This document shows, one piece after another, positions 20,051 to 39,962 of a stretch of DNA of 64,000 bases. The first letter of the stretch is position 1; the number at the start of each line of letters is the position of its first letter. A program made the translations under genes and the position numbers. The stretch is from Serratia plymuthica (GTDB lineage: Bacteria; Pseudomonadota; Gammaproteobacteria; Enterobacterales; Enterobacteriaceae): NCBI RefSeq assembly GCF_018336935.1, contig NZ_CP068771.1, forward strand, positions 1,860,001-1,924,000, in the 5' to 3' direction. The notes beneath the pieces are model-generated. The model ran no database searches. It saw only the letters and a program-made list of their open reading frames with translations, and was not told the origin of the DNA.

Positions 20051-20062
20051 TTGTATATACAA
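20051..20062. promoter_or_regulatory. HutC operator upstream of hutI
   Basis: The perfect palindrome TTGTATATACAA resembles the HutC site CTTGTATGTACAAG described in Pseudomonas. It lies 36 bp before the hutI start, in the 160-bp gap between hutC and hutI. Confidence 0.8.
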
Positions 20063-20175
20063 TTAAAAACAACCTAGCGCATTCACCGGTTTGTCACAAG
20101 AGGCGGGGTAAAAATTTGTTATCGGGGTGTGATCGCGCAGAGAAGGCGGGCGCAAAGGCTGCACCCGCAGAGGGA

Positions 20176-20931
20176 TTAAACGTCGCTGGTGAAACGGCCG
20201 AACAGCTGATAGCGGCTGCCGGGGTACAGCAGGCGCGCCGAGGTGACGACGTTTTTGCCGGACCAGGTGCGGCGGTGAATCAACAGCCCCGGTTCGTGAT
20301 CTTCCAGTTGCAGCAGGTCGCGCTCCTGGCGGGTCGGCACTACCGCTTCCACGATGTGCTCGCCGGCGGTCAGCGGGGCGGCTTGCGTCAGGTAGATATA
20401 CGGCGTCACGCGGTCGAAATCCTGCTTCATGTAATCGGGCGCCACTGCCGGATTGACGCAGCGGTCTTCCACCTGCACCGGCAGGTCGTTTTCGTAATGC
20501 ACGATCTGCGAATAGAACAGCTGTTGGCCGGGTTGGATACCCAGCGCCAGCGCTTCTTCTTCGCTGGCCGGGCGCGCTTTCAGCTGCAGGATCTTGCTGC
20601 TGTGACGATGGCCGCGAGCGGCGATTTCGTCGGCGATGTTATGCACTTCCAGCAGCGCGGTATGCGCCTTAGCCTCGGCGACGAAGGTGCCGACGCCCTG
20701 CATGCGGATCAGGAAACCTTCGCTGGTCAGCTCGCGCAGCGCGCGGTTGATGGTCATGCGGCTGACGCCCAGTTCCGCCACCAGTTCACTTTCAGAGGGC
20801 ACGCGCTGGTGCGGCAGCCAATGGCCCGCACGGATTTGGTTTACGATCGCCTGCTTGACCCGTTGGTAGATCGGGGCGGGGGTATCGCTCATTGCAGCAG
20901 CCAGTTGTAACAGGGTCTGTTGATCCACCAC
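20176..20931 (-). CDS. hutC: Histidine utilization repressor HutC (GntR/UTRA)
   Basis: The 251-residue regulator has an N-terminal GntR winged helix (YQRVKQAIVNQIRAGHW, then ELGVSRMTINRALRELTSEGFL, about residues 22-80) and a C-terminal UTRA effector domain. In known hut systems HutC represses hut genes and is released by urocanate. The start is a GTG at 20931, with GAGG 8 bases upstream; an internal ATG at 20892 lacks a ribosome site. Operators flank the gene on both sides, so autoregulation is likely. Four candidate sites in the window suggest a wide regulon. Confidence 0.93.
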   Translation of the reverse strand: MVDQQTLLQLAAAMSDTPAPIYQRVKQAIVNQIRAGHWLPHQRVPSESELVAELGVSRMTINRALRELTSEGFLIRMQGVGTFVAEAKAHTALLEVHNIADEIAARGHRHSSKILQLKARPASEEEALALGIQPGQQLFYSQIVHYENDLPVQVEDRCVNPAVAPDYMKQDFDRVTPYIYLTQAAPLTAGEHIVEAVVPTRQERDLLQLEDHEPGLLIHRRTWSGKNVVTSARLLYPGSRYQLFGRFTSDV

Positions 20932-20995
20932 GACGTTAACCTCGTCAAATAAAAAAATAATAACACCAGTTTACTGTTGATGTCGGCGTATGTAT

Positions 20996-21007
20996 ATGTA
21001 TATACAA
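20996..21007. promoter_or_regulatory. HutC operator between hutC and hutF
   Basis: ATGTATATACAA differs by one base from the site at 20051 and is identical to the one at 39783. It lies 64 bp upstream of the hutC GTG, and 224 bp upstream of hutF across a repeat. Confidence 0.75.
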
Positions 21008-21008
21008 C

Positions 21009-21134
21009 TATACCCATCATACTTGAAATTGCCGCTGTGTTGGCTGCGCTCACTTACCCGAATCGCTGACTTCAGTAAGCTCATCGGATAAGCGCTCTTG
21101 CCGCCGTGATGCAACTCCAATTATCCAGGGTATA
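21009..21134. repeat. 126-bp palindromic intergenic repeat (MITE-like)
   Basis: The element is bounded by the inverted ends TATACCC (21009-21015) and GGGTATA (21128-21134). Inside are blocks such as CATACTTGAAATTGCCGCTG, GTGTTGGCTGCGCTC and GCAACTCCAATTATCCAGGGT. I recognise this as a short dispersed palindromic repeat common in Serratia, Yersinia, Photorhabdus and Pectobacterium intergenic regions (from memory). It begins one base after the HutC operator. Only one copy is in the window. Confidence 0.7.
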
Positions 21135-21231: not shown

Positions 21232-22602
21232 ATGCCTGCTTATTTTGCCTCACGCGCTCTGCTCCCTGAGGGGTGGGCGCATAACGTCCGTCTGGACGTC
21301 GATGCGCACGGTCACCTGGCTCAGGTGATTGCCGATTCAGATCCCGAAGGCTGCATTCGCCTGCACGGCGATGTGGTGCCGGGCATGCCGAACCTGCATT
21401 CCCACGCCTTTCAACGTGCGATGGCCGGGCTGGCAGAGGTCGCGGGCAACCCGCAGGACAGCTTCTGGACCTGGCGCGATCTGATGTATCGCCTGGTGCA
21501 GCGGCTGACCCCGGAGCAGGTGGAAGTTATCGCCCGACAACTGTATATCGAAATGCTGAAGGGGGGATATACCCAGGTTGCCGAGTTCCACTATCTGCAT
21601 CATGGCGCCGACGGCAATCCTTACGCCGATCGCGGTGAAATGACCGGCCGGCTCAGCCAGGCGGCGCAGCAGGCCGGGATCGGCATGACCCTGCTGCCGG
21701 TGCTGTACAGCTACGCCGGTTTTGGCGCCCAGCCCGCCCAGCCGGGGCAGAAACGTTTTATTCAGGACGCGGACAGCTACCTGCAACAGCAGCAGGTGAT
21801 AGCTCGCCAATTGGCGGACCAACCGCTGCAAAACCAAGGCCTGTGCTTCCACTCCTTGCGTGCGGTGGAACTGAGCCAGATGCAGCAAATCCTGGCGGCG
21901 TCGGACAGCGCCTTGCCGGTGCATATTCATATCGCCGAGCAGCAAAAAGAGGTCAACGATTGCCTGGCCTGGAGCGGCCAACGCCCGGTGGCCTGGCTGT
22001 ATGAGCACATGCCGGTTGACTCGCGTTGGTGCCTGGTGCACGCCACCCATCTCGATCGCGCAGAGCTGGAGCAATTGGCGCGCAGCGAGGCGGTGGCCGG
22101 CCTGTGTCTGACCACCGAGGCCAACCTGGGCGACGGCATTTTCCCCGGTGACGCGTATCTGCACCATCAGGGCCGCTGGGGCATAGGTTCCGACAGCCAC
22201 GTGTCGCTCAACGTCGTGGAAGAACTGCGCTGGTTCGAATACGGCCAGCGGCTGCGCGATCAGCGCCGTAACCGCCTGACCACGCCGCAACAACCGGCGG
22301 TGGCGGATGTGCTGTACCAGCAGGCATTGCAGGGCGGGGCGCAGGCCTGCGGCGCGCCAATCGGCCGTTTGCAGAGCGGCTACCGTGCAGACTGGCTGGT
22401 ACTGGATGGCGACGATCCTTATCTGGCCGCCGCACCCGATGCCTCGATCCTCAATCGCTGGCTGTTCGCCGGCGGCAAAGAGCAAATCCGCGACGTCTTC
22501 GTTGGCGGCCGTCAGGTAATCGAACAGGGGCGCCACGCGTTGCAACAGCAAAGCAGTGCGGAATTCCTGCAAGTACTGAAAACTTTCCAGCAGGAGGCGT
22601 GA
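21232..22602 (+). CDS. hutF: Formimidoylglutamate deiminase HutF
   Basis: The 456-residue amidohydrolase has the HxH metal motif in MPNLHSHAFQRAMAG, further ligands in HIHIAEQQKEVND and HATHLDRAEL, and the metal aspartate in GSDSHVSLNVVEELR. It converts formiminoglutamate to N-formylglutamate and ammonia, feeding HutG; this marks the Pseudomonas-type five-step route. It is the first gene of a rightward unit with hutD (one-base overlap TGATG). The HutC operator upstream is separated from it by the 126-bp repeat. Confidence 0.95.
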   Translation: MPAYFASRALLPEGWAHNVRLDVDAHGHLAQVIADSDPEGCIRLHGDVVPGMPNLHSHAFQRAMAGLAEVAGNPQDSFWTWRDLMYRLVQRLTPEQVEVIARQLYIEMLKGGYTQVAEFHYLHHGADGNPYADRGEMTGRLSQAAQQAGIGMTLLPVLYSYAGFGAQPAQPGQKRFIQDADSYLQQQQVIARQLADQPLQNQGLCFHSLRAVELSQMQQILAASDSALPVHIHIAEQQKEVNDCLAWSGQRPVAWLYEHMPVDSRWCLVHATHLDRAELEQLARSEAVAGLCLTTEANLGDGIFPGDAYLHHQGRWGIGSDSHVSLNVVEELRWFEYGQRLRDQRRNRLTTPQQPAVADVLYQQALQGGAQACGAPIGRLQSGYRADWLVLDGDDPYLAAAPDASILNRWLFAGGKEQIRDVFVGGRQVIEQGRHALQQQSSAEFLQVLKTFQQEA

Positions 22603-23165
22603 TGAACCTGACCCGTTTTGATTTTGATTCCCTGCCGGTGACGCCTTGGCGCAATGGCGGCGGCGAAACCCGCGAGATCGCCTGCTGGCCGGCGGGCGCG
22701 CCAGACTTTGACTGGCGCGCCAGCATCGCCACCATTGCGCAGGACGGCCCATTTTCGGCATTTGACGGCATCGACCGCTCGATTACCCTGCTGGAGGGCG
22801 ACGGCGTGCATTTGTTCAGCGCCGGGCAAATCGATCACCGATTGTCGCAGGTCGGTGAACCGTTCGCCTTTTCCGGCGACGTGGCGTTGAACGCCACGCT
22901 GCTGGGCTGCGCCAGCCAGGATTTCAACATCATGACCCGGCGCGGGCGCTGGGCGGCCAAGGTGCAGCGCATCACCGCCGGCATGGCATTGCCGGCAGGC
23001 CACGCCGGTGTGCTGTATGTGTTGCAGGGAACCTGGTCGCTGGCGGGCGGTGTTACGCTGTCGGCGCGTCAGGGCGGCTGGTGGCCGGCCGAACATCACG
23101 GCGGGCAGTTGACGCCGCTGGCGAAAGAGAGTCTGGCCCTGTGGGCCGATATTCACCCGGTTTAA
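22602..23165 (+). CDS. hutD: HutD-family cupin protein
   Basis: The 187-residue HutD/Ves-type double-stranded beta-helix protein shows the family phrase TPWRNGGGETREIACWP near the start and DWRASIATIAQDGPFSAFDGIDR. HutD has no settled enzyme activity; in Pseudomonas it is thought to limit hut expression, possibly by binding a pathway intermediate. The ATG at 22602 overlaps the hutF stop and follows AGGAGG, so it is cotranslated with hutF. Confidence 0.9.
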   Translation: MNLTRFDFDSLPVTPWRNGGGETREIACWPAGAPDFDWRASIATIAQDGPFSAFDGIDRSITLLEGDGVHLFSAGQIDHRLSQVGEPFAFSGDVALNATLLGCASQDFNIMTRRGRWAAKVQRITAGMALPAGHAGVLYVLQGTWSLAGGVTLSARQGGWWPAEHHGGQLTPLAKESLALWADIHPV

Positions 23166-23319: not shown

Positions 23320-23333
23320 CTTGTATAGACAAG
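23320..23333. promoter_or_regulatory. HutC operator upstream of an ABC-transporter operon
   Basis: CTTGTATAGACAAG is a 14-base near-palindrome matching, as I recall it, the core of the classical Klebsiella hut operator. It lies 63 bp before the periplasmic-binding-protein start, in the 230-bp gap after hutD, and so ties the transporter operon to HutC. Confidence 0.8.
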
Positions 23334-23395: not shown

Positions 23396-24376
23396 ATGAG
23401 CAAGGGTTTTTCCGTGAAAACGGCTATGGGGACACTTTCGATCCTGGCGGCAGCGACAGGGTTTTGCGGTTTGACGGCGGCGCAGGCGGCCGATACGCCG
23501 GTGGCGATTGGCATCTCCGGCTGGACCGGCTTCGCCCCGTTAACGCTGGCAGACAAGGCCGGGATTTTCAAAAAGCATGGCCTGGATGTCGATCTGAAAA
23601 TGATCCCGCAGAAAGACCGCCATCTGGCGATCGCCTCCGGTGCGGTGCAGTGCGCCGCCACCACGGTGGAAACCTACGTCGCCTGGAACGCCAACGGCGT
23701 GCCAATCACTCAAATCGTGCAGTTGGATAAATCCTACGGGGCCGACGGGCTGGCGGTGCGCAACGGTATCAGCAGCGTGGCGCAGTTGAAGGGCAAGACG
23801 GTGGGCGTCGATGCGCCCGGCACGTCCTCCTATTTTGCGCTGGCGTGGATCCTGGACAAAAACCACATGACGCTGAAAGACGTCAAGCTGGCCACCTTGT
23901 CGCCGCAGGCCGCGGCGCAGGCTTTCAATGCCGGGCAGAACGACGCGGCGATGACCTATGAACCTTACCTGTCGACGGTTCGCGACAACCCCAAGCAGGG
24001 CAAAATCCTGGCCACCACGCTGGATTACCCGATGGTGATGGATACGCTGGGTTGCACGCCGGACTGGTTGAAGAAAAACCCGCAGGCGGCGAAAGCGCTG
24101 GTGGAGAGCTATTTCGACGCGCTGGACATGATCAAGGCGCAGCCGGATAAATCTTACGAAATCATGGGCGCCGCAGTGAAGTCGAGCGGCAAGCAGTTTG
24201 CCGAGTCCGCCGGCTATCTGCGTTGGCAGGATCGCGAGCAGAACCGCAAGTTCTTCAGCGGCGAAATCGCCGATTTCAGCAAAGAGGCCGCGGCGCTGCT
24301 GCTGGAAATGCGCGTGATCCGCAAACTGCCGGACATCGGCACGCTGTATGACGCCAGCTACGTAAACCAGCCATGA
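23396..24376 (+). CDS. NitT/TauT-type ABC transporter substrate-binding protein
   Basis: The 326-residue precursor has a signal peptide ending near TAAQA-ADTP and an NMT1/SsuA-like periplasmic binding fold (ISGWTGFAPLTLADKAGIFKKHG; TSSYFALAWILDKNHM). The family takes up taurine, sulfonates, nitrate, thiamine precursors and other small organics. The ATG at 23396 follows AGGAGC; the longer frame from 23204 includes the operator and is rejected. The HutC site suggests an imidazole or histidine-related ligand. This differs from the ProX-type HutX transporter of other hut loci. Confidence 0.88.
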   Translation: MSKGFSVKTAMGTLSILAAATGFCGLTAAQAADTPVAIGISGWTGFAPLTLADKAGIFKKHGLDVDLKMIPQKDRHLAIASGAVQCAATTVETYVAWNANGVPITQIVQLDKSYGADGLAVRNGISSVAQLKGKTVGVDAPGTSSYFALAWILDKNHMTLKDVKLATLSPQAAAQAFNAGQNDAAMTYEPYLSTVRDNPKQGKILATTLDYPMVMDTLGCTPDWLKKNPQAAKALVESYFDALDMIKAQPDKSYEIMGAAVKSSGKQFAESAGYLRWQDREQNRKFFSGEIADFSKEAAALLLEMRVIRKLPDIGTLYDASYVNQP

Positions 24377-24387
24377 AGGAGTCCGAA

Positions 24388-25251
24388 ATGAATTCACCCC
24401 TCAGTCCGGTTGCGGAACTGGAACGGGAGCCTGCGGCGCTGCCGCCCGCCAAACCGCACTGGCATAACCCGATGATGGTGCCGCTGCGGCCGGTTACCGG
24501 ACGGCTGCGTGGGTTTCTCGGCCTGGCCTTCTTTGCGCTGTTTGTGGCGCTGTGGGGGCTGGTGACCTTCACCGGGCTGGTGTCGCCGACGTTTCTGGCC
24601 GATCCGCTCACCATGCTGCGCGAAGGCGTACTGTTGTTCACCGAGTACGATTTCTCGCTGGATATCGGCATGACGGTGTTCCGGGTGCTGAGCGGTTTCC
24701 TGCTGGCGGCGGCCATTGCGGTGCCGCTCGGCATCATGATGGGTTCGTACAAACTGGTGGAGGCGTTTCTCGAACCCTTCGTCTCGTTTTGCCGCTATCT
24801 GCCGGCATCGGCGTTTGTGCCGTTGTTGATCCTGTGGGCCGGTATCGGCGAGATGCAGAAAATCCTGGTGATCTTTATCGGGTCGTTCTTCCAGATAGTG
24901 CTGATGGTGGCGGTGACCGTCGGCGCCGCCCGGCGCGATCTGGTGGAGGCGGCCTATACCCTGGGCGCTTCCAACCGCAGCGTGGTGCGAAGGGTGCTGA
25001 TCCCCGGCGCGGCCCCGGAGATTGCCGAACTGCTGCGTCTGGTGCTCGGCTGGGCCTGGACCTACGTGATTGTCGCCGAGCTGATCGGCTCTTCCAGCGG
25101 TATCGGCCACATGATTGTCGACAGCCAGGCGCTGTTGAACACCGGGCAGATTATCTTCGGCATTATCGTCATCGGCTGTATCGGTCTGCTGTCCGATCTG
25201 CTGTTCAAGGCGGCTAACAAGCGCCTGTTTATCTGGAGTTCTCTGCGATGA
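24388..25251 (+). CDS. ABC transporter permease (NitT/TauT type)
   Basis: This 287-residue inner-membrane protein has about six hydrophobic segments and a BPD-transport domain; the coupling loop is in EAAYTLGASNRSVVRRVLIPGAAPEIAELL. It forms the channel for the binding protein just upstream. The ATG at 24388 is preferred because AAGGAG (24376-24381) lies 6 bases before it; an ATG at 24373 would overlap the upstream stop but has no clear ribosome site. It overlaps the ATPase gene by 4 bases. Confidence 0.88.
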   Translation: MNSPLSPVAELEREPAALPPAKPHWHNPMMVPLRPVTGRLRGFLGLAFFALFVALWGLVTFTGLVSPTFLADPLTMLREGVLLFTEYDFSLDIGMTVFRVLSGFLLAAAIAVPLGIMMGSYKLVEAFLEPFVSFCRYLPASAFVPLLILWAGIGEMQKILVIFIGSFFQIVLMVAVTVGAARRDLVEAAYTLGASNRSVVRRVLIPGAAPEIAELLRLVLGWAWTYVIVAELIGSSSGIGHMIVDSQALLNTGQIIFGIIVIGCIGLLSDLLFKAANKRLFIWSSLR

Positions 25252-26030
25252 AAGCCGACAAGCTCAACGTCAGAAAGGTATCGCGGATCTTTACCGGGCC
25301 GCATGGCGAGCAGACGCAGGCGCTGCTGCCGGTCGATTACCAGGTGCAGGAGAATGATTTCATCACCATTCTTGGGCCTTCCGGCTGCGGCAAATCGACG
25401 CTGCTGCGCATCATTGCCGGGCTGGATAGCCCGACGCAGGGGGAGGTGTGGCTGGATGGCCAGCGGGTAGAGGGGCCGGGCGCCGATCGCGGCATGGTAT
25501 TCCAGAGCTATACGCTGTTCCCGTGGCTCACGGTGGAGCAGAACATCCGGTTTGGCCTGCAGGAACGCGGCGTGGGCGCGGCGCAGCAGAAAGAACGCAG
25601 CGATTATTTCATCAACAAGGTCGGGTTGCGCGGTTTTGAACGGCATTTCCCGCGCCAGCTTTCCGGCGGCATGCAGCAGCGCACCGCCATCGCCCGCGCG
25701 CTGGCCAACGATCCGAAAATCCTGCTGATGGACGAACCTTTCGGCGCGCTGGATAACCAGACCCGGGTGATGATGCAAGAGCTGTTGCTCAACATCTGGG
25801 AGGCTTCGCGCAAGACGGTGCTGTTCGTCACGCACGACATCGATGAAGCGATTTTTATGGCCAACAAGGTGGCGATTTTCAGTGCGCGGCCGGGGCGGAT
25901 CAAAACCGAAATACCGGTCAATTTCCCGCATCCGCGTGATTACACCCTGAAAACGTCGCCGGAGTTTATGGCCATCAAGGCGCAGGTCACGGAAGAGATC
26001 CGCAGTGAAACGCTGCAAAGCCTGCACTGA
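25248..26030 (+). CDS. ABC transporter ATP-binding protein (NitT/TauT type)
   Basis: This 260-residue ATPase has Walker [10 protein letters not shown], signature LSGGMQQR and Walker B ILLMDEPF, followed by the H-loop FVTHDIDEA. It energises the importer encoded by the two preceding genes. An ATGA overlap with the permease shows coupling. The next gene begins 50 bp downstream on the same strand. Confidence 0.9.
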
Positions 26031-26079
26031 AATCCGGCAGGCCATTTGACTTTACCGATACTCAATCCGCGAGGTGAGG

Positions 26080-27222
26080 ATGCAAGCCATTTCTTCCGCA
26101 GCACAGGCGGTGCGCCGGCTGGCGCGCCAACAGGCGAGTTCGCTGGGCGCCTATAACGCCGGATTATCCAGCGAGGCGGTGCGCAATCGTTACGGCGTCA
26201 CTGAAATTGCCCGCCTGGCGAGCAACGAAAACCCGCTTGGCGCCAGCCCTCTGGTGCAACAGGCGCTGAGCGATTTGGCTCAGCATAGCGGCATTTACCC
26301 CGACCCAAACAGCCAGGCGCTGCGGGCGGAAATCGCCGCGTTGACCGGCATTGCGCCGCCGCAGGTGGTGATTGGCAACGGGTCTGAAAACATCCTCGAA
26401 ATGCTGTGTCTGGCGTTTATTAATCCGGGTGATCGGGTGGTGACCCTGCTGCCGTCGTTTGGGTTGCATGAAATCTACCCGCGCATGATGGGGGCGGAGG
26501 TGACGCTGGTGGCGGTCAATCAGGCGCTGGAATTCGATCTGGCCGCCTGGCAGTTGGCATTGCAACGGCCGGCCAAGATGGTGGTATTCAGCAACCCGTC
26601 GAACCCGGTCGGCTGCATGCTCGGGCGTGATGACTTTCTGCAACTGATCGCCGCAGTGCCGCAAGACTGTCTGCTGGTGATCGACGAGGCGTATTACGAA
26701 TACTGCGCCAACCAGGCGGATTACCCGGACAGCCTGGCGCTGTTGCCGTTACAGGACCGCCCGTGGATTGTGCTGCGCACCTGCTCCAAAGCTTACGGGC
26801 TGGCCGGGCTACGCGTCGGTTACGGCCTGGCCTGTGATGCCGAGCTGGTGGCGCTGCTAGACCGGGTGCGCACACCGTTCAACATTAACCGGGCGGCGCA
26901 AAATGCGGCGTTGGCGGCATTGCGCGATCGGCAGCATGTGGCCGACAGCGTCGCCTGGGTCAGTGAAGCGCGTGCGGCGATGGCGGCGGCGTTGCGTACG
27001 CTGGGGTTGCAGGTGGCGCCTTCCAGCGCCAACTTCCTGTTCTTTGATTGCGGCTACCCGAGCGTGCAGATCGCCGAGGCGTTGCTGGCGCACGGCATCA
27101 TCGTCAAACCCTGGCGCGAAGCCGGTTATCAGCGGTTCATCCGGGTTTCGATCGGCAGCGCGGCAGATAACCGGCGTTTCCTCCACGCATTGCGACAGGT
27201 GCTGGCGGAGGCGGCACGCTGA
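26080..27222 (+). CDS. HisC-like PLP aminotransferase
   Basis: This 380-residue fold-type I aminotransferase is close to histidinol-phosphate aminotransferases: ARLASNENPLGASPL at the N-terminus, GNGSENILEMLCLAF for cofactor binding, SNPSNPVG, IDEAYYEY, and the PLP lysine in TCSKAYGLAGLRVGY. Its place in a transporter operon under a HutC site argues for a catabolic or salvage transaminase rather than the biosynthetic HisC, which belongs in the his operon. A plausible reaction is imidazole-pyruvate with histidine; aromatic amino acids are the alternative. GAGGTGAGG precedes the ATG. The next gene starts at its stop (TGATG). Confidence 0.82.
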   Translation: MQAISSAAQAVRRLARQQASSLGAYNAGLSSEAVRNRYGVTEIARLASNENPLGASPLVQQALSDLAQHSGIYPDPNSQALRAEIAALTGIAPPQVVIGNGSENILEMLCLAFINPGDRVVTLLPSFGLHEIYPRMMGAEVTLVAVNQALEFDLAAWQLALQRPAKMVVFSNPSNPVGCMLGRDDFLQLIAAVPQDCLLVIDEAYYEYCANQADYPDSLALLPLQDRPWIVLRTCSKAYGLAGLRVGYGLACDAELVALLDRVRTPFNINRAAQNAALAALRDRQHVADSVAWVSEARAAMAAALRTLGLQVAPSSANFLFFDCGYPSVQIAEALLAHGIIVKPWREAGYQRFIRVSIGSAADNRRFLHALRQVLAEAAR

Positions 27223-28379
27223 TGAGCGGGGCGATACTCAACGCGGCGGATTTACAGCGTGCGGCGCGGCGTTATCTGCCGCGTTTCGCTTACCGTTACC
27301 TGGCGGGCGGCGCGGAAGACGAACACACGCTGCGCGGTAATCGGGTGGCGTTCGACCAATGGCAGTTTGTGCCGCCGGTACTGCGTGACGCCAGCCGCCG
27401 CACGCTCAACATCCGGCTTTGGCAGCAGGAACTGGCGGCGCCGCTGCTGATTGCGCCCACCGGCTACAACGGCATGCTGCGCTATCAGGCGGATCTGATG
27501 CTGGCGCGCAGCGCCCGGGCGTTCGGCATTCCCTATATTCAGAGCACGGTGTCGACCGCCTCATTGGAGGAGATTGCCGCCGACGGCCAGGGGCAGCACT
27601 GGTTTCAGCTGTATGTGCTGCGCGATCGGCAGGTGACCGCCGGGCTGTTGCAACGCGCCCTGGCTGCCGGCTGCGGCACCCTGGTGCTGTCGGTGGATGC
27701 GGTGCATTTCGGCAACCGCGAGCGCGATCGGCGCAGTTACCGGCAGCCAATGAAACTCTCCCTCGCCAGCCTGTGCGACGTGGCGCTGCACCCTCGCTGG
27801 CTGTGGCATACCTTGCGCCCGGCGGGCATGCCCGGTTTCGGCAATCTGCAACCTTATCTGCCGGCGCAGCGGCAGCGGGGCCTGAGTGGGGCCGCTTATT
27901 TTGCCCGCGAAATGGACGCCGCGCTGAACTGGCAAACGCTGGATTGGGTACGGCAATGCTGGCCGGGCAAGCTGCTGGTGAAAGGCATTCTGCACCCGCA
28001 GGATGCCCGTCAGGCGCTCGATGCCGGGGCGGATGGCATAGTGCTGTCCAACCACGGCGGCCGCCAGCTCGACGGCAGCGTTGCCCCCGTCAGCCTGTTG
28101 CCGGCGGTGCGTGCTGCCTGTGGGCCGACGGCGACGATCCTGATCGACAGCGGCTTTCGGCGCGGCACCGACGTGGTGAAAGCGCTGGCGCTGGGCGCCA
28201 ATGCCGTGTTGCTCGGCCGCCCGTTGTTGTACGGCGTGGCGCTGGCCGGGCAGGCAGGCGCGACTCGGGCGCTGCGGATTTTCAGCGAGGAAATCGACCG
28301 CACGTTGGCGCAACTGGGTTGTTGCAGCGTGCAAGAGTTGGGGCCGCACTTGCTGCGGCCGGTGAATGAACGAGGATAA
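27222..28379 (+). CDS. FMN-dependent alpha-hydroxy-acid oxidase/dehydrogenase
   Basis: The 385-residue TIM-barrel flavoenzyme is of the lactate/mandelate dehydrogenase and glycolate oxidase family. It has the N-terminal RYLPRFAYRYLAGGAEDE, PTGYNGMLRYQADLMLARSARAFGIPYI, the catalytic His region LSNHGGRQLDGS, and DSGFRRGTDVVKALALGA for FMN phosphate. It oxidises an L-2-hydroxy acid to a 2-oxo acid. Adjacent to a HisC-like aminotransferase, imidazole-lactate to imidazole-pyruvate would fit, but mandelate- or lactate-like substrates cannot be excluded. It overlaps the upstream gene by one base. Confidence 0.85.
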   Translation: MSGAILNAADLQRAARRYLPRFAYRYLAGGAEDEHTLRGNRVAFDQWQFVPPVLRDASRRTLNIRLWQQELAAPLLIAPTGYNGMLRYQADLMLARSARAFGIPYIQSTVSTASLEEIAADGQGQHWFQLYVLRDRQVTAGLLQRALAAGCGTLVLSVDAVHFGNRERDRRSYRQPMKLSLASLCDVALHPRWLWHTLRPAGMPGFGNLQPYLPAQRQRGLSGAAYFAREMDAALNWQTLDWVRQCWPGKLLVKGILHPQDARQALDAGADGIVLSNHGGRQLDGSVAPVSLLPAVRAACGPTATILIDSGFRRGTDVVKALALGANAVLLGRPLLYGVALAGQAGATRALRIFSEEIDRTLAQLGCCSVQELGPHLLRPVNERG

Positions 28380-28389
28380 GGAACCTGAG

Positions 28390-29484
28390 ATGTCTTTAGC
28401 GCAAATCGCTTTCCCGGCGCGTGTGGTGCGCGGTGTCGGAGCATTGGAGAAGATCGGCCCGCTGTGCGCCGGTTATGGTTCAAGGGCGATGTTGATCGGC
28501 GGCGCGCGTGGGCTGGCGGTTACCGAGACGCGCATAGGCAACGGCCTGCGTGCGGCGGCGGTGGAGCTGGTTGGCTGCGAGCAGTATGGCGGCGAATGCA
28601 GTGAAACCCAGATTGCGCGGCTGGTCGCATTGGCGCATTCGGCAGCGGCGCAGATGCTGATCGTCGCGGGTGGGGGTAAAGCCATTGACACCGGCAAGGC
28701 GGTGGGGGCAGCCTGCGGATTGCCGGTCATCACCGTACCGACCATTGCTGCCACTTGCGCTGCCGTTACGCCGTTGACCATCCGCTATCATGACGATGGC
28801 CACTTTCGCGACATGCTGCACCTGCCGCATGCCCCGGCGGCGGTGGTGATTGACAGCCCGTTGTTGGCTGCGGCACCGGTCCGCTGGTTGGCTGCCGGGT
28901 TGGGCGATACGTTGGCGAAATGGTATGAGTATCGCGCTATCGCCCACCCGCAGGCGCTGAACGGCATGGCACTGGCGGCTCAGGCCAACAGCCGTATCTG
29001 TTACCAATTGATTGAGGAATACGGGGCTGCGGCTTGTCAGGCGGCGGAGCGATGCCAGGCCGATACCGCGCTGGAGCAGGTGCTGGATGCCATCTTCCTG
29101 TTCGCGGGGCTGACGTCGGTGATGGGCAGCGGGGCGCATGCGGCGGCGGCCCATGCGCTGTTTGAAGGTTTTACCGTCTGCGACAAGACGCGCAACTTTG
29201 GTCATGGTCTGTTGGTGGGGTACGGTAATCTGTGTCTGCTGGCGCTGGAACAGCGCAGTGATGAGGAACTGCTGGCGGCGCTGCGGTTGGCGCAGGACTG
29301 CCGGATACCGCTGCATCTGGCGGATATCGCCGACGATCTGGACAACCAAGCCATCAACGCCATTATGGCGGCGGCGGTAGAGGCACCGGATATGGCCAAT
29401 ATGTCGCAGCCGGTCACCGTCACCCAGTTGACGCAAGCCATGCAGCGGGTACATGAACTGGCCGACAGAGTGCGCAAGGGGTAG
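28390..29484 (+). CDS. Iron-containing alcohol dehydrogenase, HcxA/GldA-like
   Basis: The 364-residue group III dehydrogenase has GGGKAIDTGKAVG for cofactor binding, VPTIAATCAAVTPL, and metal ligands in LAAGLGDTLAKWYEY, GSGAHAAAAHALFEGF and NFGHGLLVGYG. The sequence is close to E. coli HcxA (YbdH), a hydroxycarboxylate dehydrogenase that reduces 2-oxo acids, and to glycerol dehydrogenase. AAGGA upstream supports ATG 28390 over 28366. With the aminotransferase and FMN enzyme it completes a set that interconverts amino, oxo and hydroxy acids. Confidence 0.8.
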   Translation: MSLAQIAFPARVVRGVGALEKIGPLCAGYGSRAMLIGGARGLAVTETRIGNGLRAAAVELVGCEQYGGECSETQIARLVALAHSAAAQMLIVAGGGKAIDTGKAVGAACGLPVITVPTIAATCAAVTPLTIRYHDDGHFRDMLHLPHAPAAVVIDSPLLAAAPVRWLAAGLGDTLAKWYEYRAIAHPQALNGMALAAQANSRICYQLIEEYGAAACQAAERCQADTALEQVLDAIFLFAGLTSVMGSGAHAAAAHALFEGFTVCDKTRNFGHGLLVGYGNLCLLALEQRSDEELLAALRLAQDCRIPLHLADIADDLDNQAINAIMAAAVEAPDMANMSQPVTVTQLTQAMQRVHELADRVRKG

Positions 29485-33338: not shown

Positions 33339-33368
33339 CTTTCGTCAAATAAAGCCACCAACGTCAGG

Positions 33369-33489: not shown

Positions 33490-34272
33490 TCAGATACTGG
33501 CCAGATAGCCGCCGTCGACATACAGGATCTGGCCGGTGATGTAGGCTGCCGCCGGCCCGGCGAGGAAAATGGCCGCACCGGTAAGGTCGCTCAGCTTGCC
33601 AAAGCGGCCTAGCGGGATTTTATCCTGCATGGACTCGCACCAACCCTTGTCCCGGTAAAACACCTCGGTCATCGCGGTCTGAAAATAGCCTGGCCCGATG
33701 CCGTTGACCCGGATCCCGTGGGCCGCCCATTCGCTGGCCAGCGCACGCGTCATGCCCGCCAGCCCGGATTTTGACGCGCCGTAGGCGGTAGCCCCCGGCA
33801 CGCCGACTTCGCTGGTCAATGAGCACAGGTTGATGATGCTGCCGCCGCCCTGTTTGACCATCAGGCGCGCCGCCGCCTGCGCGCAGAAGAAAGCGCCTTT
33901 CAGGTTGGTGCCGACGATGCTGTCCCACAGCGTTTCATCCACCTCCAGCGACGGGCACAGGCGTTCGATACCGGCGTTGTTGATCAGGATATCCAGCGGT
34001 TTGCCCGCCAGTGCGGCAAAGGCGGTTTCAATCGACGCCGAGTCCTGGACATCCAACAGCAACATTTCCGGGTGTTCTCCCCAATTATTCAGCTGTTGTA
34101 CCACCTCTTGCAGCGCGGCGCGTTGTCGCCCGGCGACGATCACCTGCGCGCCGGCCTGCGCCAGCCCGATCGCCAGCGCCTGACCAATCCCCCGCGTAGC
34201 GCCGGTGATCAGTGCGCGCTTGCCGAGCAGTGAAAAGGGGGCCAGGCCCGGCGGTAAATAGGTGTTTTGCAT
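33490..34272 (-). CDS. SDR-family oxidoreductase, gluconate 5-dehydrogenase-like
   Basis: The 260-residue classical SDR has TGATRGIG near residue 24, NNAG, and the Y-x3-K pair in AYGASKSGLAG, ending with the family motif YVDGGYLASI. Similar proteins oxidise sugar acids and polyols. It is the last gene of the leftward operon that starts with a binding protein at 39720, 44 bp after the kinase gene. Its substrate is unknown; in this context it may act on an alcohol group of the imported compound. Confidence 0.8.
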   Translation of the reverse strand: MQNTYLPPGLAPFSLLGKRALITGATRGIGQALAIGLAQAGAQVIVAGRQRAALQEVVQQLNNWGEHPEMLLLDVQDSASIETAFAALAGKPLDILINNAGIERLCPSLEVDETLWDSIVGTNLKGAFFCAQAAARLMVKQGGGSIINLCSLTSEVGVPGATAYGASKSGLAGMTRALASEWAAHGIRVNGIGPGYFQTAMTEVFYRDKGWCESMQDKIPLGRFGKLSDLTGAAIFLAGPAAAYITGQILYVDGGYLASI

Positions 34273-34316: not shown

Positions 34317-35657
34317 CTAAAACGCGCGTTCACCGCCGAACTGCGGATCGATGGCGGTGAACCAGCGGCTGGCCACGTCCTTGCCGTCGACAGGTTCGCT
34401 GCCCAGCATCATGGCGATGGCGAAGCCCAGCGCTGAGCTTGCCGGTGTATGGCCGCTGCCGCCACCGGCACGCAGATCGAGCACCAACGTCGGGCAGCAG
34501 AACAGCGCCAGCCTCATCAGCCGCCGCCAGTTATGCGGCAGCCAGCCGCGCGTCGTCAGTTCGCTGAGCAATGGCCGCCAGTACAGCGTACCTTTGTCCT
34601 GCAGGAAGGCGGCGCGCAATGGCGTCAGTTGCCAGTCATGCTCGACGATCAGCCGTTGCCCCTCCAGCCGGGCAGCCACCCGGTAATGCGTCGCGCAGCG
34701 CTGCGGTTCGTACAGCCAGAACGGGTGAGCGAAAATATTGTGGAAAGTCGCTTTGATCTCCGCCAGCAGCGCCGGGATATTACGCCCGGCGAAGGCCGGA
34801 TCGAAGCTGACCAACTGCGGCGGCGGGCGATCGGTTTCGTACCATACGTTGGCGTTGTGCGCGTCGCCGTGGGCGATCACCACGCCGTGCTGCGCCAGTT
34901 CGGCCGGGGCCAGCAGTTCACCGGCCTGCAACAGCAGTTCACCCAGCGTATGGCGATAGCGCACGCCGTTGATTTCCCACTGGAGGTCTTGCAATTGCGT
35001 CCAGCTCAACTCCAACTGCGCCAGCTGGAAGGTTTTGCCGACGTAGAACTGCGCCACCCGGCCACCCAATCCCGGTGTGGCGCCAGGGCTAACCAACCGG
35101 TGATGAAACAGCTGGTGGATTGGCTCGCGCGCCACCGCCGCCGACTGGCCGATTTTTAACGTCGGCAGCGTCATCCGCAAGATCTCCGCATCGGCGCGGT
35201 GCTGTGCATCGACCACCGGGGCCATCTGCGGCCAGCTCTGTTGCAGTTCAATCTCACGGCACACGTCGGCCAGCCGCCGATCGTGGCGCAACCGGTACAG
35301 CAGGATCTGCCGCCCCGGTTCACCGCAGGCATACAGCGGCACGTCGACGCGAAAACCGTTATTGCGCAACAGCTCGGCGTTGTAATATTCCTCGATGGTG
35401 TGGTCTTCGCCTTCCTCGTGGTGATATTTAAAGAACAGGCCGCGGCCGTCGGCCAATTGCAACTGGCCGTTCAGCGAGTTCAGGCTGTACTGATCGCGGT
35501 TGATGGTCAACTCGCCCACCGCCACCCCGGTGATCTCCAGCACCAGTTGGCGCAGTTTGTCTGCCGCCTGCTGCCATTCGCCGGCGTGGGTCAGCGCTCT
35601 GGCCTGCGCCGCCAAGGGTTCGCCCCGGGCGCTGCGGGGAATAGGATTATCGGTCAT
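34317..35657 (-). CDS. APH/choline-kinase-fold small-molecule kinase, unassigned
   Basis: The 446-residue protein has an aminoglycoside phosphotransferase-like fold. The Brenner motif is HGDAHNANVWY (H263 to N270), followed by the metal aspartate in VSFDPAF (D286); a candidate ATP lysine is K77 in LFFKYHH. It therefore phosphorylates a small hydroxyl compound, not a protein. It lies between the HisD-like and SDR genes of the second HutC-marked operon, so the substrate is probably the imported alcohol or a derivative. I know no characterised close relative. Confidence 0.65.
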   Translation of the reverse strand: MTDNPIPRSARGEPLAAQARALTHAGEWQQAADKLRQLVLEITGVAVGELTINRDQYSLNSLNGQLQLADGRGLFFKYHHEEGEDHTIEEYYNAELLRNNGFRVDVPLYACGEPGRQILLYRLRHDRRLADVCREIELQQSWPQMAPVVDAQHRADAEILRMTLPTLKIGQSAAVAREPIHQLFHHRLVSPGATPGLGGRVAQFYVGKTFQLAQLELSWTQLQDLQWEINGVRYRHTLGELLLQAGELLAPAELAQHGVVIAHGDAHNANVWYETDRPPPQLVSFDPAFAGRNIPALLAEIKATFHNIFAHPFWLYEPQRCATHYRVAARLEGQRLIVEHDWQLTPLRAAFLQDKGTLYWRPLLSELTTRGWLPHNWRRLMRLALFCCPTLVLDLRAGGGSGHTPASSALGFAIAMMLGSEPVDGKDVASRWFTAIDPQFGGERAF

Positions 35658-35675: not shown

Positions 35676-37004
35676 TCAGGACTGACGATCGAGCAGGGTT
35701 TTACGCAACGGTGACACCGCCAGCGCGTGTGCGGGGAAGCCTTCATACAGGGCAAACCCGTGCGCCTTTTCCGCCAAGGCGTCGTAGCCGCTGCGGGTGA
35801 CATAACCCACCGAAATACGCTTCATGTAGTCGAATACCGACAGCGGCCCGGCCACCTTGGCGGCGGCATTGGTCGGCAGCACCGCATTGGGGCCGAGCAC
35901 AAAGTTGCCTAAGGTTACCGGGGTGTAATTGCCCAGCAGGATTTCACCGGCGTTGCGAATTTGGCCCATCACCGCCAGCGGTTCTTCCGCCAGGATCTCC
36001 AGATGCTCCGGTGCGTAACCGTTAACAAACTCCACTGCGGCGGCGAAGTCCTGCGTCAGCACCACGCCGCCGTGGGCGCTGCACAGCACGCTTTGCGAGA
36101 AGCCGGCGCGTTTCTCGTCCAGTTGCGCCCAGTAACCCGGCAGCGCGGCGATCGCCTGTTCGGCTACCCGGCGGCTGGAGGTCACCAGCCAGGCGGAGGA
36201 GTCCGGGCCATGTTCCGATTCAATGATCAGGTCCAACGCCGCCAGCGCACCGTTGGCGCTGTCATCGGCCAAAATAATGCTTTCGCTGGGGCCAGCCGGC
36301 ACGCCGGGATCGATCAATTGCGCCAACTGGCGTTTGGCGGCCACCACCCAGGGGCTGCCGGGGCCGACGATCTTCAGGCACTTTGGCACTGTTTCAGTGC
36401 CATAAGCCACGGCCGCGACCCCCTGCGCGCCGCCGCACTTGTAAATTTCGCGAATGCCGACCAGCTGCGCCGCCACCAGCGTGGCATCATCGACTCTGCC
36501 ATCCGGGCCGGGCGGAGTGATCACCACCGGCCGGGGGACGCCCGCCACCAGCGCCGGGATCGTCGTCATCAGCAGCACGCTGGGGAACGAACCTTTGCCG
36601 CGCGGCACATAGCAGGCCACGGAATCGATCGGCAGGTGGCGATCGCCGGCAAAAGCGCCGGGCTGCATCTCTTTCAACCACATTTCTTCCGGTTTTTGCG
36701 CTTCGTGAAACGCGCGGATATTGCCGGCGGCATAGGCGATTGCGGCGGTGACGGCAGGATCCAGCCGCGCCATGGCGTCGTCGAACTCGCTCTGCTCGAC
36801 GCGAATCGACATCCGTTCGGCCTGCACGCCATCGAATTCCCGTGCGAAGCGCTGTAGCGCGGCATCGCCTTCACTGCGTACCGCCGCGATAATCGGCTGC
36901 ACCCGTTCGATAAAGAACGACAAGTCGGCTTCGGTGCGTTGGAACAGGGCTTCCGGCAATTGCCGGCTGTGGCTGAGATCGTGAAAGGTCACTGTGTGCG
37001 ACAT
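35676..37004 (-). CDS. Histidinol-dehydrogenase-family enzyme, catabolic paralogue
   Basis: This 442-residue protein is of the HisD family: VACYVPRGKGSFPS, KCGGAQGVAAVAYGTETVP, AGPSESIILAD, catalytic Glu333-His334 in YAPEHLEI, and His426 in EGFPAHALAV. Compared with E. coli HisD (ligands Gln259, His262, Asp360, His419, recalled), the Gln position is Glu262 and the Asp position is Asn367 (TLGNF), so two metal ligands are exchanged. It lies in a transporter operon with a kinase and an SDR, so it is not the biosynthetic HisD. Relatives such as HpsN oxidise other alcohols to acids. Histidinol or another amino alcohol is possible here. Confidence 0.8.
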   Translation of the reverse strand: MSHTVTFHDLSHSRQLPEALFQRTEADLSFFIERVQPIIAAVRSEGDAALQRFAREFDGVQAERMSIRVEQSEFDDAMARLDPAVTAAIAYAAGNIRAFHEAQKPEEMWLKEMQPGAFAGDRHLPIDSVACYVPRGKGSFPSVLLMTTIPALVAGVPRPVVITPPGPDGRVDDATLVAAQLVGIREIYKCGGAQGVAAVAYGTETVPKCLKIVGPGSPWVVAAKRQLAQLIDPGVPAGPSESIILADDSANGALAALDLIIESEHGPDSSAWLVTSSRRVAEQAIAALPGYWAQLDEKRAGFSQSVLCSAHGGVVLTQDFAAAVEFVNGYAPEHLEILAEEPLAVMGQIRNAGEILLGNYTPVTLGNFVLGPNAVLPTNAAAKVAGPLSVFDYMKRISVGYVTRSGYDALAEKAHGFALYEGFPAHALAVSPLRKTLLDRQS

Positions 37005-37013: not shown

Positions 37014-37784
37014 CTAAGCTAATTCGTGTTGGGAAGCCTGTTCCCGGATAGATTTCAGAACCTGACGGTGCAGATCGATATAGCGTGCGTCGCCGCTCAC
37101 TTCTTCGCTGCGCGGGCGCGGCAGATCGACCTGAAAGGTGGTATTGATTTTGCCCGGCCCCATCACCACGATGCGGTCCGACAGGTACACCGCCTCTTCG
37201 ATATCGTGGGTGACAAACATTACCGTCAGACGATGGGTTTCCCAGATGCGCGTCAGCAACAGCTGCATCTGGTGGCGAGTCATGGCGTCGAGCGCGCCGA
37301 AGGGTTCATCCATCAGCAGGATTTTCGGCCGGTAGGACAACGCACGGGCAATCGCCACCCGCTGTTTCATGCCGCCGGACAGTTCGTTGGGGTAGGCGTC
37401 GGCGAATTCGGTCAGCTTGACCAGCGCCAGGTGGTCGCCGGCGATGTCACGGCATTCGCCGCGGCCATAGCCTGCCGCCTTCAGGGCGAATTCAATATTC
37501 TGGCGGGCGGTCAGCCACGGCAGCAGGGTATAAGACTGGAACACCACGCCGCGATCGATACCCGGCCCGCGGATGTCCACGCCGTCGACGCGCACGCTGC
37601 CGCTGTCGAAATCCTCCAGCCCGGCGGCGATCGACAGCAGGGTACTTTTGCCGCAGCCGGAGCTGCCGACCACAGAGACAAACTCGTTGTCGTGCAGCGT
37701 CAGATCGATGTCATGCAATACCTGACGTGCGCGCTTGCCGACCTGAAAGCTTTTGTTCAGACCATTGAGGGTGAGGGTTGCCAT
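37014..37784 (-). CDS. ABC transporter ATP-binding protein (second NitT/TauT system)
   Basis: The 256-residue ATPase has Walker A GSSGCGKST, signature LSGGMKQR, Walker B ILLMDEPF and the H-loop FVTHDIEEAVY. It pairs with the permease whose stop overlaps its start by one base (TAATG). It is separated by 9 bases from the HisD-like gene, so transport and metabolism are cotranscribed. Confidence 0.9.
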   Translation of the reverse strand: MATLTLNGLNKSFQVGKRARQVLHDIDLTLHDNEFVSVVGSSGCGKSTLLSIAAGLEDFDSGSVRVDGVDIRGPGIDRGVVFQSYTLLPWLTARQNIEFALKAAGYGRGECRDIAGDHLALVKLTEFADAYPNELSGGMKQRVAIARALSYRPKILLMDEPFGALDAMTRHQMQLLLTRIWETHRLTVMFVTHDIEEAVYLSDRIVVMGPGKINTTFQVDLPRPRSEEVSGDARYIDLHRQVLKSIREQASQHELA

Positions 37785-38656
37785 TATTTACGCCTCGCGT
37801 TGTAGCGGAACAATACGCGCTCGGCGGCGCGCATCAGTTGATCGGTGATCAGCCCAAGCAGCCCCAGCAGCAGGATGTAGCCGATAATGGTGTCGGTCTG
37901 GAAAAAGCGCTGCGACACCACGATGCGGTAGCCCAGCCCTGAGGTGGAGGCTACCAGTTCCGCCAGCACCAGCCAGGTCCAGGCCCAACCGAGGCTGATG
38001 CGCAACGCATCCCAGATGCCCGGCAGCGCGCTGGGCAGCACGATCTTGAACAGGATATTGCGGTCCGGCATGCCGAGCGTGCGGCCCAGGCCGACAAAAT
38101 CCCCCGGCACGCGCTTTACGGTATCGATCACCATCAGCACCTGTTGAAAGAAGGTGCCGATCCAGATGATCAGGAATTTCTGTACGTCATCGGTGCCGGT
38201 CCACAAAATGGTCAGCGGCACAAAGGCCACCACCGGCATATAGCGGACAAAATCCACCAGCGGTTCGGTGACCGCTTTGAAAAAACCGTAACAGCCGGCC
38301 AATACGCCGATGACAATGGACATCACCGACGAAATCAGGAAGGCCACCGAAATGCGGTACAGGCTGCTGCGAATATCGCTCCACAGCGTGCCGTCCTGCG
38401 CCAGGCTGGCCATGCGGCGCCATACGCCGTCCAGCGTGGGCATAAAAATCGCCGGGACCGCACCGCTGCGGGTCGCCAGCCACCAACTCAGCAGCAGCAG
38501 CGCGAACACGGCCACGGCGATAGCGACGAACAGCCCGCGCGACGGCGTTTTACCGATCACCATCAGCCCAAGCGGCTGGCGCTTGCGCCGCCCAGGCGGT
38601 GGGACGTTGTTCAGATGAGTGCGCGCGTCAGGCGCATCCAGTTTTATCGAGCTCAT
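37784..38656 (-). CDS. ABC transporter permease (second NitT/TauT system)
   Basis: The 290-residue inner-membrane protein has a cytoplasmic N-terminus and about six helices; the coupling loop is around FVGLGRTLGMPDRNILFKIVLPSALPGIWDALRI. It belongs to the taurine/nitrate/sulfonate permease family. It is only distantly similar in sequence to the permease at 24388, so the two systems are not recent duplicates. The binding protein gene lies 62 bp upstream. Confidence 0.88.
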   Translation of the reverse strand: MSSIKLDAPDARTHLNNVPPPGRRKRQPLGLMVIGKTPSRGLFVAIAVAVFALLLLSWWLATRSGAVPAIFMPTLDGVWRRMASLAQDGTLWSDIRSSLYRISVAFLISSVMSIVIGVLAGCYGFFKAVTEPLVDFVRYMPVVAFVPLTILWTGTDDVQKFLIIWIGTFFQQVLMVIDTVKRVPGDFVGLGRTLGMPDRNILFKIVLPSALPGIWDALRISLGWAWTWLVLAELVASTSGLGYRIVVSQRFFQTDTIIGYILLLGLLGLITDQLMRAAERVLFRYNARRK

Positions 38657-38718
38657 CGGGTCTTTCCTCTGATGGGGAGTTACGCCGGCAACAAACCGCC
38701 GACCGGCGCTAATCCGGC

Positions 38719-39720
38719 TTACAGACCGTTAACGAATCGCGCGTCGATGAGGTTTTCCGGCGTAACCGGTTTGCTCACCAGCTTGGCTTCTGTGGCCGCT
38801 TTCAGCACGTGGGCGAAGGTGTGTTTGGCAAAGTGCTCGCTCAGGACCTGCTTGTTTTCCGCCAGCGAGTAGTACTTCACGCCGTCAAACGCGCTGGCCA
38901 GATCGGCCGGGCTGGCGCCAACCTGTTTGGCGATGATGGCCCGATCCGCCGCGGTGTTGTGCTGATAATGCTGTAACGCGGCATCCCAGCTTTTAATCAT
39001 GGCGGCGACCTGGCCTGGTTTGGTCTTGATCACCTCGTCGCGCACCACCAGCACGTCGCCGATCAGGCCCGGATCGGACTCGCCGCTGTACAGCATTTTC
39101 ACGGCGGCATCCTGTTTCTTCGCCATGCTCAGGTAAGGTTCGTAGGTGACGGCGGCGCTGACGCGCTTGGCGATCAGCGCGCTGCCTGCGGCGTCGGCCG
39201 GCATCGGCACCGGCACGATGTCACTCCATTTCATTCCGGCGGAGGCGAGGGCGCTGTGCAGCAGGATGTCGCTGGTGGTGCCTTCTTCGTACGCCACCTG
39301 TTTGCCTTTCAGATCGCTCAGCGTTTTGATGCCTGGGCCGACAATCAGCGCGTCGGCGGTTTGGCTTTGATCAAGCAGCAACACGATTTTGACCGGCAGT
39401 CCGGCGGACACCATGCCCATGGCGGTGTGGGTGGCGATATTGGCGGCATCGATCTGGCCGCTGGCCAGTGCGGCGTTGATGTCTTTGTCTTCGGCGAAGT
39501 TGATGATATCCACCTTGTCCAGCCCCTGTTGTTTGAACAGGTCCAGGCTATTGGCTACGTGCCACTGGCCGTAGCCCAACCAGGGTTCAATGCCCATTTT
39601 GAAGGTGCCGGCCTCCGGCTTGGTCAGCGGTGCCTCGGCGGCGAATGCCGGGGCGGCAAGCATGCTGAGGCAGCAGGCGGTGGCGAGCACTTTTTGCAGC
39701 GTTTTTATGGGTTGCTTCAT
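38719..39720 (-). CDS. ABC transporter substrate-binding protein (second NitT/TauT system)
   Basis: The 333-residue precursor has a signal peptide ending near APAFA-AEAPL and an NMT1/taurine-type binding fold (FKMGIEPWLGYGQWHVANSLDLFKQQGL; ADALIVGPGIKTLSDLKGKQVAYEEGT). The ATG at 39720 starts the signal peptide; the frame from 39846 would run across the operator. It is the first gene of a six-gene leftward operon (binding protein, permease, ATPase, HisD-like, kinase, SDR). A HutC-type site 62 bp upstream suggests a ligand connected with histidine metabolism. Confidence 0.87.
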   Translation of the reverse strand: MKQPIKTLQKVLATACCLSMLAAPAFAAEAPLTKPEAGTFKMGIEPWLGYGQWHVANSLDLFKQQGLDKVDIINFAEDKDINAALASGQIDAANIATHTAMGMVSAGLPVKIVLLLDQSQTADALIVGPGIKTLSDLKGKQVAYEEGTTSDILLHSALASAGMKWSDIVPVPMPADAAGSALIAKRVSAAVTYEPYLSMAKKQDAAVKMLYSGESDPGLIGDVLVVRDEVIKTKPGQVAAMIKSWDAALQHYQHNTAADRAIIAKQVGASPADLASAFDGVKYYSLAENKQVLSEHFAKHTFAHVLKAATEAKLVSKPVTPENLIDARFVNGL

Positions 39721-39782
39721 GGTGGAACCTCGTCTTTCGCACTGGTGAGTAAGAGTGATGTCCGTGTCGGTAATGTCCGTCC

Positions 39783-39794
39783 ATGTATATACAA
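39783..39794. promoter_or_regulatory. HutC-type operator before the second transporter operon
   Basis: ATGTATATACAA (followed by G) is identical over 12 bases to the site between hutC and hutF. It lies 62 bp upstream of the binding-protein start, a spacing like that at 23320. It is the best evidence that this operon, 19 kb from hutC, belongs to the HutC regulon. Confidence 0.7.
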
Positions 39795-39962
39795 GGTGGA
39801 GCAAGTTAAGGGCCAACTGCGAATAGCGGCGGGAATTATTTTTCAACTTATTAATAATTATAAATAATCAGGCATTTTGCCGACGAGGCGAGAGGGGCGT
39901 TGAAACGGGGGATGGGGGAATGCACCAGAACGGCGCACAAAAATTGCGCAGCGGTTCGAACT

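Follow-up and report, generated by a model that had tools for sequence, protein, structure and literature searches.

A 64,000-nucleotide stretch of the Serratia plymuthica genome (contig NZ_CP068771.1, positions 1,860,001 to 1,924,000; hereafter the window) carries four palindromes of the type bound by HutC, the repressor of the histidine utilisation (hut) genes. They precede hutI, hutC and two importer operons, operon A (23396-29484, plus strand) and operon B (39720-33490, minus strand). The four palindromes are probably HutC operators, and operons A and B, as we read their sequences, would feed imidazole hydroxy compounds via imidazolepyruvate to histidine. The motif by itself is weak evidence, so the case rests on the placing of the sites, their conservation and the linkage of the genes.

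Putative HutC operators in the window

HutC represses hut genes and responds to urocanate, and DNase I footprinting in Pseudomonas gave the consensus TGTA-N2-TACA (PMC12977541, accessible part). This consensus was found exactly in three of the four window sites. The perfect palindrome TTGTATATACAA stands in the hutI(G) promoter (20051..20062) and ATGTATATACAA between hutC and hutFD (20996..21007); the relative G087 has both sites at the same places. Operon A is preceded by CTTGTATAGACAAG (23320..23333), which from 23321 reads TGTA-N2-GACA, the variant also present at hutI of the relatives G189, G067 and G115. The site of operon B, whose genes are on the minus strand, is again ATGTATATACAA (39783..39794; TTGTATATACAT on the minus strand). 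The distance from site to start codon was 36 for hutI (ATG at 20015), 63 for each of the two substrate-binding protein genes (ATG at 23396 and 39720), and 65 for hutC with its GTG start (about 104 if an internal ATG is the start). These values agree with the sequence-only reading of this DNA, which had placed four operators in promoter regions 36-65 bp from start codons, and each of its four strings was found where it had put them. The hutI, hutC/hutF and hutU sites stand at hut promoters, and the genome encodes a cognate HutC: the hutC product, a GntR-family repressor (20176..20931, minus strand), scored 309 bits on TIGR02018 against a cut-off of 220, and it is the sole protein of its own genome (G000) above that cut-off. 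The 20996 site lies 225 from the hutF start and is parted from hutF by a repetitive 129-bp element (21008-21136; 44 genome matches including itself) that resembles a miniature inverted-repeat transposable element or an enterobacterial repetitive intergenic consensus-type repeat. A promoter scan gave no surplus over shuffles (6 versus 4.6) and was not used.

At up to two mismatches the window contained four matches, compared with a shuffle mean of 0.65, and 1 of 100 shuffles reached four. The one-contig genome of 5,455,815 bases has eight places within one mismatch of TTGTATATACAA: the four window sites, 586442 immediately upstream of hutU, 1315446 in front of an MHS-type symporter gene, and 641162 and 3865647, which are without evident hut link. 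The sequence-only reading had named an abundant and randomly placed motif as one finding that would speak against it; six of the eight places were at hut genes, at operons A or B, or at a permease gene whose site has hutU-like flanks, and the distribution of the motif in this genome is accordingly not random. Four of the eight lie inside 19.7 kb (Poisson about 3e-8, for a stretch picked after the fact).

The two-mismatch scan of this genome was rejected as evidence, with 88 matches per strand versus 64 in the reversed control, and so was the bare number of one-mismatch places, which ranged from 5 to 21 in relatives and from 4 to 8 in the control. One-mismatch and control counts were 8 and 4 in G087, 21 and 8 in G057, 13 and 4 in G141, 8 and 8 in G196, 5 and 6 in G114, and 9 and 7 in G189; 5, 5, 4, 4, 2 and 3 of these places, respectively, fell within the fetched hut, A or B stretches, and five more in G141 were at another HutC-type cluster. 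That cluster (L206, G141 C23) contains the third HutC-type gene of G141 and has five sites of one mismatch or better. Its neighbours are genes for hydantoinase/oxoprolinase-like subunits (recognised by eye), ABC-transporter genes and a hutH-like gene, and it is perhaps another HutC-type imidazole module. The footprint and linkage evidence described below is independent of these per-genome counts.

Conservation of the sites and co-occurrence with HutC

We sampled 198 genomes of the family for HutC and for orthologs of the A and B binding proteins. A orthologs (at least 73% identity) were found in 14 other genomes, one of them as a fragment, and B orthologs (at least 65% identity) in 8 others; weaker matches, paralogs of about 30% identity, were left out. 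Named records added 18 loci that carry the B kinase, from Serratia, Pantoea, Erwinia, Mangrovibacter, Tatumella, Winslowiella, Acerihabitans, Prodigiosinella, Celerinatantimonas, Vibrio salinus, Salinicola and metagenome-assembled genomes. For footprinting, the 260 bp upstream of each binding-protein gene were searched, with 300 dinucleotide shuffles and the reversed pattern as controls. The A fragment of G169 (residues 120-326, start missing) and the B locus of G184, which has a one-mismatch site, were kept out of the footprint, and locus L117 (3.8 kb) was left out of the upstream and linkage counts.

A site of at most one mismatch was present upstream of operon A in 14 of 14 loci, window included (shuffle mean 0.01, reversed pattern 0). 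For operon B, again with the window, 18 of 22 loci had a site within one mismatch and 20 of 22 within two (shuffle mean 0.04, reversed pattern 0), and the two loci lacking one (G114 and G048) contained the transporter without B enzyme genes on the fetched stretch. HutC above the cut-off was detected in every one of the 17 genomes that have A or B orthologs, own genome included, compared with 81 of 198 overall (hypergeometric 8e-8, ignoring kinship).

Gene linkage in relatives

The A transporter and hut genes were on the same 16-17-kb stretch in all 13 close relatives; hutH followed the ATPase gene in 11 of them, a site preceded hutH in 8, and a hisC-like gene came after hutU in 6. Twenty of 28 distant A orthologs were examined, and hut genes stood beside the transporter in 16 of these 20 regions and were not seen on the fetched stretch in L184, L185, L187 and L192. 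Since the A transporter adjoins hut genes in close and distant relatives alike, it is a common hut-cluster transporter. The proposal of two importers in the hut regulon is supported by the conserved sites at both; how common the A importer is in hut clusters lay outside the view of the sequence-only reading.

In the operon B loci the importer, hisD-like, kinase and SDR (short-chain dehydrogenase) genes stay together. An lldD-like gene was found on the B stretch in 15 of the 17 loci long enough, inside operon A in two Serratia; in the other 13, a site was present at the lldD-like or the adjoining hisC-like gene in 9. A hisC-like gene was on the B stretch in 9 of the 17. In Vibrio salinus and Salinicola, hutC-like genes adjoin the B genes, and in Vibrio so do hutF and hutG. 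Outside the class, the kinase (45-49% identity) was found in 6 of 398 genomes drawn from the phylum, in clusters with a hisD-like gene (6), an sdr gene (6), an mdr (medium-chain dehydrogenase) gene (5), a B-type importer (5) and a hisC-like gene (3). In 4 of these 6 genomes a hutC-like gene (41-47% identity) is inside the cluster, and in three clusters with their own hutC-like gene (L203, L204 and L205) two promoters bear motifs resembling CTTGTATATGTAAC and CTTGTATATGCATG. The placing of operon B under HutC is likewise supported by the conserved site; B is in addition a conserved unit, which in those four outside clusters brings its own hutC-like gene. Footprinting, gene context and HutC co-occurrence together support, at the level of sequence comparison, the proposed HutC control of hutIG, hutC, hutFD and the two importer operons.

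hut genes and further candidate regulon members

In the window, hutG (N-formylglutamate deformylase, 17995..18795, minus strand; TIGR02017, 382.6 bits, cut-off 278.75) and hutI (imidazolonepropionase, 18792..20015, minus strand; TIGR01224, 518.4 bits, cut-off 298.15) stand on one side of hutC, and hutF (formimidoylglutamate deiminase, 21232..22602, plus strand; NF006682, 864.1 bits, cut-off 637) and hutD (HutD/Ves type, 22599..23165, plus strand) on the other. HutD scored 139.7 bits on NF008488, under the cut-off of 292, and was named by its position beside hutF. The hutUH genes are at 583-586 kb of the genome, 1.29 Mb from the window, with their own site at 586442, and the regulon accordingly extends beyond the four window sites. 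In addition, the operator of the MHS-type metabolite symporter gene (1314024-1315446, L208) and its flanks closely resemble those of hutU, and for this reason we take the symporter as a likely further regulon member. The four sites of the sequence-only reading thus stand as part of the regulon, and the hutUH site and the likely symporter site lay outside its view. The hutUH locus (L207, 575-588 kb) also contains genes for a ProY-like permease and an ABC transporter and a second hutH-like gene. A weak site with two mismatches at 588155, before a PcaK-like aromatic-acid gene of the major facilitator superfamily, is only suggestive, because two-mismatch counts are near the reversed control.

Genes of operon A

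Operon A encodes a NitT/TauT-type substrate-binding protein (23396..24376; PF09084 NMT1, 6.2e-20), a permease (24373..25251; SaoP/TauC-like, under cut-offs) and an ATPase (25248..26030; SaoA/TauB-like, under cut-offs). Both importers A and B consist of an NMT1-type binding protein, one permease and one ATPase, which is the NitT/TauT composition, and both are under the curated cut-offs of nitrate, taurine and sulfonate models. The importer genes of A are followed by those for a HisC-like aminotransferase (26074..27222; NF003496, 532.8 bits, just under 540; TIGR01141, 292.6 over 276.55), a flavin mononucleotide (FMN)-dependent alpha-hydroxyacid dehydrogenase of LldD-like type (27222..28379; matching the FMN_dh profile PF01070 at 4.1e-131) and a GldA-like iron-containing alcohol dehydrogenase (28366..29484; NF006941, 257.6 bits, under the cut-off of 336; PF00465, 1e-25). 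All are on the plus strand. The closest relative of the LldD-like protein in the PDB is (S)-mandelate dehydrogenase, an aryl 2-hydroxyacid enzyme (6bfg, 2.4e-100). The csc sucrose genes (cscR, cscA and cscB, 29542-33361) stand between operons A and B in the window, so that the last site is indeed beyond them, as the first reading had it; the same order was seen in two named Serratia and in G087, and csc genes were not seen between A and B in the other B loci examined.

Genes of operon B

Operon B, all on the minus strand, encodes a NitT/TauT-type substrate-binding protein (38719..39720; PF09084, 1.7e-21), a permease (37784..38656) and an ATPase (37014..37784), the latter two under cut-offs, a HisD-fold dehydrogenase (35676..37004; PF00815, 1.2e-136; TIGR00069, 438.1 bits, cut-off 243.8), a putative small-molecule kinase with an APH/protein-kinase-like fold (34317..35657; no Pfam or NCBIfam match at E<=0.001) and an SDR (33490..34272; PF13561, 3.3e-62). 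These proteins are 96-99% identical to counterparts in Serratia plymuthica and S. inhibens. A threonine-dehydrogenase-like MDR gene was found in at least 13 of the 18 named B loci, S. plymuthica included, and is absent from the window; in S. plymuthica NBRC 102599 and G087 it stands between the kinase gene and the SDR gene, and it is missing at 34273-34316 of the window and in S. inhibens.

We compared active-site residues in 19 B-type HisD-like proteins, from 12 of the 18 named loci, the window and the 6 loci outside the class. The B-type proteins belong to the same fold family as HisD (PF00815); all 19 retain the catalytic Glu326 and His327, and all 19 differ from HisD by Q259E, D360N and H367A (E. 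coli HisD numbers). The zinc ligands of HisD, Gln259, His262, Asp360 and His419, are accordingly Glu, His, Asn and His in every B-type protein, whereas the genome's own HisD retains all four ligands and His367. HpsN belongs to the same family and is marked by His126 and Asp352 (PMC11382572, accessible part), which are Phe and Asn in all 19; the His126 column was set from the Leu motif of HisD, in an alignment without any HpsN sequence. HpsN oxidises a terminal alcohol in a four-electron reaction that uses NAD and zinc, according to the available part of the same paper, and a B-type enzyme might conceivably do likewise. Histidinol dehydrogenase may be the wrong name for genes so annotated in clusters of this kind.

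An AlphaFold2 model of the kinase built from 51 sequences had a predicted local distance difference test (pLDDT) score of 91.9; a model from 6 sequences was useless (pLDDT 45.8). H263, G264, D265, N270 and D286 were invariant in the 51 sequences, giving the HGDxxxxN loop and the metal Asp. The modelled protein appears to have a kinase fold, with PsiK and methylthioribose kinase as the nearest predicted folds, at Foldseek TM-scores that were low (about 0.2-0.5 by query length among the matches listed). It would thus share with the APH, choline kinase and methylthioribose kinase fold the H-G-D-x4-N loop and the later Asp, and it differs in having no Pfam match. A sequence search against the PDB gave no match below E 0.58. 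We found 1,156 homologs of this kinase, which has no Pfam model, some named from Mycetocola, Cryobacterium and other actinobacteria.

Proposed route

We propose that HutC represses hutIG, itself, hutFD and operons A and B, and very likely also hutUH and a permease elsewhere in the genome, and that urocanate from histidine breakdown would release it; for HutC of other bacteria, both repression and release are established. Operon A would import histidine or a closely related compound such as imidazolelactate; the LldD-like enzyme, perhaps with the GldA-like one, would oxidise imidazolelactate to imidazolepyruvate, from which the HisC-like aminotransferase would yield histidine. Operon B would import a different imidazole compound, the most likely candidate being an imidazolyl alcohol or polyol. 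The HisD-fold dehydrogenase, the kinase and the SDR, joined in many relatives by a second dehydrogenase, may convert this compound to imidazolelactate. This product would then enter hut through the LldD-like and HisC-like enzymes.

It is quite possible, if short of probable, that operon B and the lldD-like and hisC-like genes together form a new HutC-controlled pathway for the catabolism of imidazolyl alcohols or polyols, for example dephosphorylated intermediates of histidine biosynthesis. Such a pathway would rely on phosphorylation by a kinase whose family has no name and on a HisD-fold enzyme of a third functional class besides HisD and HpsN, and its product would pass through imidazolelactate and imidazolepyruvate to histidine. 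Pseudomonas testosteroni reportedly degrades imidazolyl-L-lactate via imidazolepyruvate and transamination into histidine breakdown (the work of Coote and Hassall in 1973), an entry like the one proposed here. That work is physiology only, and we know of no gene assignment for it.

Alternative explanations

Several observations weigh against HutC control of the four sites and the imidazole route. The operon A site at 23321 is one base off the consensus. The footprint loci are related and not independent, so their tiny binomial values are not to be read literally. Motif counts are near the reversed control in some relatives and not above it in G196 and G114, and just part of the relatives' motif places fall in the fetched hut, A and B stretches. 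G141 has three HutC-type proteins above the cut-off, so its B site may be read by one other than the hut HutC. As for the enzymes, no curated model assigns a substrate to any of those of A or B, the HisD-like protein is without the residues needed for histidinol, and a plain imidazolelactate route leaves the kinase unexplained; the kinase step is the weakest part of the proposal, because that route needs no phosphorylation. Finally, P. aeruginosa HutC also occupies sites of low affinity outside catabolism (PMC12977541, accessible part), so the motif is no proof of catabolic control.

Were the A and B palindromes chance matches or neutral leftovers, the two genome places without evident hut link and the per-genome counts not far above the control would be expected company, but the like-placed sites at all 14 A loci and at 18 of the 22 B loci, against none in the reversed control, make this extremely improbable. 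The A and B sites might instead belong to another GntR regulator whose motif is alike. Regulators of the HutC family have similar palindromes as their targets, one of the three HutC-type proteins of G141 is encoded beside lldD of its B cluster, and four of the six B clusters outside the class have their own hutC-like gene; as there is one protein over the HutC cut-off here and the A and B sites resemble those of hutI and hutC, we regard this explanation as distinctly unlikely.

Two other readings concern operon B alone, and both are lowered by the active-site residues. Ordinary L-histidinol utilisation, with import, oxidation by HisD to histidine and the other enzymes as accessories, would suit HutC control, the score of 438 bits on TIGR00069 (cut-off 243.8) and the retained Glu326, His327 and ligands His262 and His419. 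Yet the changes of Gln259 to Glu, Asp360 to Asn and His367 to Ala occur in 19 of 19 proteins, all three residues being retained in the genome's own HisD, and the use of histidinol calls for neither a kinase nor an SDR nor an LldD-like enzyme; we consider this reading unlikely. A sulfonate operon, in which an HpsN-type dehydrogenase of 2,3-dihydroxypropane-1-sulfonate is paired with a sulfonate-importing NitT/TauT transporter, would fit an importer of the sulfonate/taurine-like family, the HpsN proteins among the PDB matches of the HisD-like protein and, from the accessible part of PMC11382572, the partnership of HpsN with the other oxidoreductases HpsO and HpsP. It is very improbable in view of the replaced diagnostic His126 and essential Asp352 (roles from the same part of that paper), the HutC sites and the linkage to hut, lldD and hisC; moreover, no sulfolactate lyase was seen among the annotated operon B genes, no wider search having been made. 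HutC control of imidazole catabolism thus remains the reading that we favour.

Relation to known systems

In the accessible part of Leyn et al. 2016 (PMC5343134), proteobacterial HutC regulons consist of hut genes and transporters, with the histidine biosynthetic operon added in two species, and a novel ABC transporter, HisXYZ, is predicted in Comamonadaceae, Ralstonia and Rhizobiales. HutC, hut genes and several transporters are common to those regulons and the present one, whereas the HisD-like, kinase, LldD-like and HisC-like enzymes are not named in that part of the paper; transporter A may be the predicted HisXYZ. Compared with Pseudomonas HutC, as far as the available part of PMC12977541 describes it, the consensus is alike and the target genes differ. 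In the part of the literature that our searches covered, nothing described a HutC regulon combined with operon B, in keeping with the earlier suggestion that a regulon with these enzyme sets is undescribed. The HutC regulon is known, and what appears to be new is its combination with operon B, with possibly a new catabolic pathway inside it.

If the proposal is true, the hut regulon would be a hub for imidazoles beyond histidine and urocanate, in several Gammaproteobacteria and also in some genomes from other classes. It would name concrete genes for the imidazolelactate route, and it would point to a kinase family without a Pfam model and to a HisD-fold enzyme with altered metal ligands.

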